Shown here: positions 15,610-16,894 of the stretch, in pieces | How positions within the stretch are numbered: position 1 is the first letter of the stretch | Layout: the number at the start of each line of letters is the position of its first letter | Translations under genes and position numbers: made by a program | Source of the DNA: Candidatus Bathyarchaeota archaeon | GTDB taxonomy: Archaea; Thermoproteota; Bathyarchaeia; Bathyarchaeales; Bathycorpusculaceae | Direction of reading: 5' to 3' | Assembly: GCA_026014665.1 (NCBI GenBank) | Contig: JAOZHX010000019.1 | Span: 1-64,000, forward strand | Length of the DNA: 64,000 nucleotides | Notes under the pieces: model-generated | Databases searched by the model: none | The model's input: only the letters and a program-made list of their open reading frames with translations | What the model was told of the DNA's origin: nothing

Positions 15610-16598
15610 ATGTATTCTTCCTCTGAAGTTGCGGTGCCTACGACGACCTGGTAGAAAACCTTGCCGTCGCAAGTTGACTGCACTTTTTCTAGTTTGCCGC
15701 TAACCTTAATCTGCTGCCCAGTTCGAGCAACGTTGCGGTAGCAACCTATGTTGGAAACGACTTGAATGGAGATTTGCTCGATGGGAATTTCAGATTGGGC
15801 ATCCTGCGGCTGGTAATTGGTGATTCTGTAAACTGCTGGACGATACATGGTTTCAGTGTCATCGCAGACATTGGCGATGAAACGGACGGGCTCAAGCGGT
15901 GTGTACGTAAAGTCACCGTAATGCGTTTTTATTTCAGCAGGCTTTTTGGTTGCATTATACATCCAGATTTTACCCTGATATTTTCCGACAAATTTACGTG
16001 CCGCTTCTATTCGGTTACCTGCCGTATAGCTGAGCACACCCTGATTTACGAGAGCTTGAATCGTGCTCTCCACTCGGCGGAAGTTTTGGGCACCATAAAC
16101 TACAAAGTCTATGTCAGATTCAGGTGCATGCATTTCCAATGCTATGGAGCCGTGGATGCCAAGGTCCTCGAATCCTACGCCTGATTCTTTGGAAACCAGT
16201 TCGACAAGTTCAAGTGCCAATTTCTGCAGTTTATCAGGATTTTTGAGTTGTTGCAGCCAAACCAAACGGTCTTTGGGAACAAACACTTGCTCAATAACGT
16301 CGAGTGGTGCTGTTATGAGTTCTTTGTCTCGGGTGGTATCGAAGTAGATGTAATTGGGGAATTTTTTTCTAAAAGCCTCTATGAAAGTTTGGTAGTTCTT
16401 AGCGGTGTAGAGTTTTTCCGCTCTGAACAGTTCATTTTCGCCGAATTTCCATGTGCGAGTAAGCATGTCCACGTTGAAGAGGTCTTTGTATTTTGCTGGT
16501 ATGTATTTGAGGAAGGCAAAAACTCGGTCTTCGGGATGTTCATACCCGAAGGTGTTCATGATGAACCCGTCTTTTGTGACGAAGGTGTCTCCATCCAT
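15597..16598 (-). CDS. Nucleotidyltransferase-domain protein, paralog C
   Basis: A 333-residue paralog with N-terminal [15 protein letters not shown] at 147-151, SDIDFVVYG at 161-169, a [12 protein letters not shown] middle segment shared with A and B, and C-terminal VSGKLEKVQ ... FYQVVVG. Asp162 and Asp164 are the expected metal ligands. It leads the B-C transcription unit on the minus strand. The 5' region overlaps the end of a small-protein frame (16556-16894). Confidence 0.75.
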
Positions 16599-16894
16599 TG
16601 GATTCCATATGTCTGCTTCTTCCGTAAGGTTGCACCGGAGAATATGGTTGAAGTGTTAATTAAAAAAGCTATTGTTAAACATCGCTTAAACTCTTGTCCA
16701 AACAGGGCTCTGTCTCTTTTTGTTTTTATGTGGATGTGGTGGTTTTGTGGCTGCCACAAGACGGCAAAAGTGGCTGATTGTTCTTTGGGATTGCAACCCA
16801 TTCCAACGCCTGTTACTGTGTGGCATAAGACAATCATACCACACGAGCAACATTGGTTCATGTTGAAAGCACTGCGGTGTGGATGTGGAATCAT
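16556..16894 (-). CDS. Small protein family member, copy 1 (WQPQNHH motif)
   Basis: The first 57 codons align without gaps to the protein at 41149-41352. Shared features are an initial MxPxP, FNM at 10-12, C15 and C18-G19, H25-T26, and [12 protein letters not shown] at 46-57. Beyond residue 57 the frame continues for 55 codons without similarity and overlaps the start of the nucleotidyltransferase gene in another frame, so the true 3' end may be shorter or degraded. The family is not recognised. Two Cys and several His suggest metal binding. Confidence 0.5.

Follow-up and report, generated by a model that had tools for sequence, protein, structure and literature searches.

What do two related stretches of DNA represent when they lie in one 64,000-nt piece of a Candidatus Bathyarchaeota genome (the window, on contig C12), and why do they resemble one another? 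A preliminary description had singled out two open reading frames on the minus strand, at 16556..16894 and 41149..41352, and had proposed a small protein family in two diverged copies, possibly mobile or duplicated, or else an RNA element. The likeness of the frames is real and was reproduced by BLASTP, with 25 of 57 residues identical and no gaps, and a 27-mer common to both stretches had two exact matches in the window against none in 100 shuffles. We consider it likely that both stretches belong to an old, high-copy, non-coding family of MITE-like elements without a transposase and with exchangeable ends. This removes a false protein family and puts in its place a strongly amplified non-coding element of an uncultured archaeon.

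The two copies in the window

The element would measure about 260-350 bp and would consist of a 196-nt core that has, at its 5' and at its 3' end, one module out of a set of alternatives. To define the core, the 36 contigs (2.37 Mb) of the window's own genome were searched with a 27-base motif, up to 3 mismatches being allowed, and 21 places were obtained; 20 of these were aligned to build a sequence-only model (R1), one being omitted as a contig end cuts it. Both copies of the window lie on the plus strand, antisense to the two reading frames. The core of copy 1 occupies 16724..16916 (model positions 2-194, 126.8 bits, E 7.6e-37), preceded at 16706..16719 by the 5' end module GGCTCTGTCTCTTT (a pattern match with 1 mismatch), which is half of a weak terminal inverted repeat. 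The probable 3' end, at 16970..16983 on the same strand, is a weak, imperfect inverted partner of this module, having 5 mismatches to AAAGAGACAGAGCT over an overlapping 14-mer that was extended by eye. The core of copy 2 occupies 41182..41377 (model positions 2-196, 125.7 bits, E 1.7e-36) and is located in the spacer between a QueT-like gene and an HD gene. The protein specified at 42363-44090 has its best named relative in a Bathyarchaeota MAG (63%) and the next in Methanoperedens (59%); judged by this one protein, the archaeon is probably a member of Bathyarchaeia. A palindrome reported for both copies is indeed present in each, in the form TTGTGGYTGCCACAA and not in the letters first given, with C at the variable base in copy 1 and T in copy 2. 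The statement that the flanking DNA is unrelated is correct only in part, as the element includes short end modules on both its 5' and 3' sides, which come in alternative forms.

Copy number and distribution

The count of two copies proved to be far too low, the core model having at least 83 matches in the own genome at E <= 0.01 (150 of 953 first-look candidates scored). Nearly the full core was matched in 73 of the 83, which start at model position 4 or before and end at 186 or beyond; depending on the test, 75 or 71 of the 83 were used, short or cut copies being dropped. Mean identity among the own-genome copies is 0.64. When neighbouring ORFs were assigned by a simple heuristic, 32 of 75 copies overlapped an ORF of 92-167 aa, that of the preliminary description among them, and none overlapped a longer one. 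The copies are short, numerous, intergenic and devoid of a transposase gene, as is typical of a MITE. Contig ends were found inside near-identical copies of the core (G000 C27:1-170 and 20734-20905, C13:4-146 and C9:4-145), and it was probably the repeat that interrupted the assembly at these points. Two copies, at L089:4950-5050 and L090:2970-3070, stop matching the core after its first ~43 nt and continue in a different tail common to both, a form that we take for a deletion or recombinant.

Under filters stricter than those of the own-genome search, the core was detected in 16 of 61 related genomes (E <= 0.01), all of one genus: the window's own genome and 15 of the 31 other members, some of which have a single weak match. 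The remaining 16 of the 31 had no match, nor did any of 29 genomes outside the genus. Ten genus members carry from at least 3 to at least 48 cores each (E <= 1e-4), all copy numbers per genome being lower bounds. The copies cluster by genome, the nearest relative of 115 of 130 sampled copies lying within the same genome against 49.1 expected. Exact motifs were absent outside the genus from genome contigs and viral contigs, and the core of copy 2 matched nothing among phages or plasmids, in searches that may have left out the records nearest to the window's genome.

Evidence of movement comes from the site of copy 2. The matching QueT-HD spacer of the relative G015 (L246) aligns on both sides when compared by BLASTN with window positions 40700-41800, and lacks 41046..41458 (plus strand), having 28 nt there instead; this empty site rests on one relative, of about 65-70% DNA identity. 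The interval missing from G015 contains the core of copy 2, its 5' module CCTTTCAAAGGATGCTTGCTCGTAAGC and a 3' tail, and part of it may lie outside the element proper. None of 18 relative loci found through the HD gene contains a core. A search with the NTP_transf_2 gene gave 19 relative loci, none with a core at the place of copy 1 and one (in G018) with a core on the opposite side of that gene. Two copies of the own genome, L100 and L102, agree at 99% over 258 nt, end abruptly and have unlike sequence beyond the 3' end; they represent a recent 258-nt duplication. The suggestion of a mobile or duplicated sequence is supported by the copy number, the empty site, the patchy occurrence within one genus and the inverted repeats seen in relatives (below).

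Tests of a protein-coding function

The many copies allowed the protein family first proposed to be examined directly, and we now regard it as very improbable. In its favour are the ungapped 57-residue alignment with its 25 identities, the fact that both frames of the window pair are open, and a plus-strand frame without a stop in 28 of 71 copies. However, the frame of the preliminary description is open in just 18 of 71 copies and broken in 53, and 30 of the 71 have lengths that are no multiple of three. Silent third-base changes fail as evidence of coding across 20 copies, where mean pairwise difference by codon position was 0.296/0.294/0.342 (permutation p = 0.56); the most variable position was the third in the first and last thirds of the core and the first in the middle third. 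The 112-aa ORF matched no Pfam family. Neither the frame at 16556..16894 (codon-position, Pfam and frame tests) nor that at 41149..41352 (codon-position and frame tests) is a gene, as a coding family would be expected to keep an open frame and a codon-position signal. Frame breakage and the lack of significant periodicity refute the protein reading, unless a minority of the copies codes.

End modules and terminal repeats

Own-genome copies differ in the 5' module attached to the core, CACTTCAATGGATGCTTGCATCGTAAGC being one example, and their 3' tails are of about three kinds. These modules are tied to the core: one 3' tail form, searched for genome-wide, adjoined a core in six of six cases, and a 5' module did so in eight of ten pattern matches, one of the other two looking by eye like an internally deleted copy that retains the same tail. 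Eight of the copies sampled from sister genomes (L081, L280, L289, L319, L335, L341, L344 and L347) have the core between inverted copies of CAGTAGATCAAAA..., the stretch from one outer end of the repeats to the other measuring 254-359 bp. This CAGTAG repeat, taken as an 18-mer with up to 3 mismatches, was recognisable in 1 of 71 own-genome copies on the 5' side and in 4 of them on the 3' side, and in a minority of the sampled copies of every sister genome tested. A separate repeat, AGCTCTGTCTCTTT (up to 3 mismatches), flanks 7 of 75 own copies at the 5' side and 11 of 75 at the 3' side, with shuffle means of 0.6 and 1.1; it was rejected as a universal terminal end of the own-genome elements, being found in a minority of them.

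Recognisable terminal repeats in so few copies weigh against the MITE-like interpretation, as does the outcome for target-site duplication, which was tested and not demonstrated. Of 23 stretches bounded by the repeats, 4 had ends that match over 4 bp, where random pairing would give 2.6, and in nine own-genome copies (copy 1 excluded as over the mismatch limit) the longest shared word averaged 2.9, against 3.6 with swapped flanks. The flanks of these repeats are mostly TTAA or TTAT, and a duplication is indistinguishable from that preference. Target-site duplications are described in one review (PMC10969869) as fading while elements age. A duplication of AAACAG noticed by eye beside copy 1 was not upheld as a general feature, the nine-copy test having excluded that copy.

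A further candidate for an outer terminal repeat, GTTGCTCTGCCATAGACCCCC, had no inverted partner at 30 loci (up to 5 edits, 1,500 nt either side) and also stands upstream of unrelated sequences, and was therefore reclassified as a shared promoter-like 5' module. The module GTTGCTCTGCCATAGACCCCCTCCCC(C/T)TATAAAAGG is itself repeated, with 31 matches in G029, 11 in G013 and 9 in G018 (the loci include L298, L302, L305, L307, L308, L317 and L321). It looks like an archaeal promoter, with a C-rich stretch and a TATA-like box, and it is placed upstream of the core in some copies and also upstream of sequences unrelated to the core, a part of which make up repeat families of their own. Stretches of 168-424 bp that have no core lie between the same CAGTAGATC inverted repeats as the eight sampled cores at L345, L348, L356 and L357 (G008) and L349 (G018), and are probably further MITE-like families of the ISH3-like transposase described below. 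At L342, L348, L351-L353 and L355-L357, CAGTAGATC ends occur directly behind C-rich TTATTTAA/TTATATAA boxes, as if the elements had been inserted into the TATA boxes of promoters.

An ISH3-like transposase

The inverted repeats that bound some cores are shared with an insertion sequence. In G018, a 1113-bp element has the same inverted repeats and encodes a 347-aa DDE transposase, for which the best NCBIfam family is ISH3 (NF033541; 173.8 bits, E 4.3e-51); it is termed ISH3-like because this score is under the curated cut-off of 225. Among 32 genomes of the genus the transposase is full-length in G018 only. Partial forms occur in G012 (160 residues at 57%) and G031 (296 residues at 34%, with a stop), and five further genus genomes gave short or weak matches. 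In the same 32-genome search the own genome gave no match, and neither did G006, G029 or G024, which have at least 28-36 cores each. The own genome does possess a matching repeat at C13:67354-67373, near a transposase-like remnant of 22 residues.

The copies, lacking a transposase of their own, would probably have been moved in trans by transposases of insertion sequences. For the own-genome copies the agent may have been of the ISH3-like type, although the corresponding repeats are there mostly absent or unrecognisable. Since the transposase is missing from the own genome and from three core-rich sister genomes, we hold the MITE-like interpretation as likely and no more firmly than that.

Fixed sites in the core

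Of the 199 core columns compared among 75 own-genome copies, 35 reach an identity of 95% or more and 59 fall below 60%; no column reached 95% in 500 within-copy permutations of mismatches. Many of the fixed columns are TGTG/CACA sites, TGTGG/CCACA words numbering 6.36 per copy against 0.80 in mononucleotide shuffles, and column conservation is correlated with that in other genomes (r = 0.69). The model was seeded on a conserved 27-mer and favours copies that are intact there, so conservation may be inflated, but fixed sites also occur far from the seed. With this many columns fixed at a mean identity of 64%, the core itself seems to be under constraint. Such sites are not explained by the uniform decay of a passive repeat, which is a further point against a simple MITE-like interpretation, and they suggest that the element is still recognised by something. 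Site-by-site constraint is not expected of a passive, decaying repeat. We infer that a protein, either a transposase or a factor of the host, recognises the regularly placed TGTG/CACA sites in the DNA.

The same observations can be interpreted the other way about, with the core as an array of putative protein-binding sites that benefits the host and is selected at many intergenic places, movement having merely spread it. The fixed columns, their conservation across genomes and the density of TGTGG/CCACA words agree with this, as does the direction of the upstream neighbouring ORF, which for 46 of 71 copies leads away from the element. We think it possible but clearly less probable than the MITE-like interpretation, given that binding by a transposase predicts the same pattern, that seeding on the 27-mer favours copies with that part intact, that the orientation figure depends on the ORF heuristic, and that, under the stricter filters, 16 of the 31 other genomes of the genus have no match, which means that the core is not essential. 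In its fullest form, which we advance tentatively, the core would be a functional DNA module, a fixed-spacing TGTG/CACA array for a candidate archaeal protein at about 80 sites per genome, spread by hitch-hiking between transposon ends and forming a regulatory or chromosome-organising network in part of one genus. If so, mobile DNA would have connected dozens of intergenic regions with a single protein.

RNA structure

The element might instead be a family of structured ncRNAs, about 200-310 nt long, whose transcription would start at the first core base and which would use alternative promoters and 3' ends. Consistent with this are the sharp 5' boundary of the core at 'CTTTATGTGG', behind differing upstream modules, and the C-rich TATA-like module upstream of the core at seven loci of G018 and G029 (L298, L305, L309, L312, L316, L322 and L325), in the same orientation as the core and in most at a similar distance. 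TATA-like words also peak 26-30 nt upstream in sister-genome copies (11 counts over 55 copies among the best scoring), but this peak is absent in 75 own-genome copies. The TGTG/CACA and CATG/CATG sites are able to pair, 92.9% of the cells in a four-stem structure picked from the consensus by the analyst being standard pairs, and the consensus fold energy is lower in the forward (-32.6) than in the reverse direction (-21.3). Mean folding z, however, was just about -1.25 forward, and about -1.75 to -1.77 reverse, over 35 own and 35 other copies.

Covariation speaks against such an RNA, which we regard as rather improbable. When 20 copies were folded with RNAalifold, the covariation term was -0.53, and 2 of 29 pairs had changed on both sides. 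In 75 copies the top covarying column pairs are mostly not Watson-Crick and reflect subfamilies; among the 45 top pairs listed a few are mainly Watson-Crick (for example 117-122), and these do not stack into helices. The four-stem structure had two pairs with changes on both sides, against a shuffled mean of 3.6, and a covariation score of 0.099 against 0.101 in shuffles, and transitions at its paired columns displayed no greater wobble asymmetry than at unpaired ones. The covariance analysis proposed in the preliminary description reveals pairing that covaries no more than in shuffled alignments, and no excess of the compensatory base changes expected of a structured ncRNA. The supposed hairpin persists as a TGTG and a CACA site that are conserved separately, without compensating changes, and the window has no Rfam match at gathering thresholds. 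RNA hairpins were rejected on the covariation and wobble tests.

Comparison with known systems

The terminal repeats of some copies link the family to ISH3 (NF033541) through the 1.1-kb element of G018, whose transposase has ISH3 as its best family, although it scores below the family cut-off and the window's element encodes no transposase. Among archaea, the closest counterparts are MITEs such as SMN1 (320 bp) and SM3A (164 bp) of Sulfolobus (PMC3718332), which are likewise short and dispersed, have no ORF of their own and need a transposase in trans. The window's element differs from these MITEs in that its terminal repeats are mostly unrecognisable in its own genome and its ends are exchangeable, its copies being very diverged and the core fixed at scattered sites. 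Because a target-site duplication was looked for without being demonstrated, and few own-genome copies have terminal repeats, the element is called MITE-like and is not filed as a MITE. Among the papers listed by literature searches, which covered a minority of subscription journals, there was no description of the element and nothing on miniature inverted-repeat elements in Bathyarchaeia. In pneumococci, BOX is an element of modular structure. The resemblance to BOX, an element treated in PMC10969869, is that of a mosaic of modules placed between genes. The two are non-homologous as far as tested, the window's element residing in an archaeal host and combining one constant core with alternative ends.
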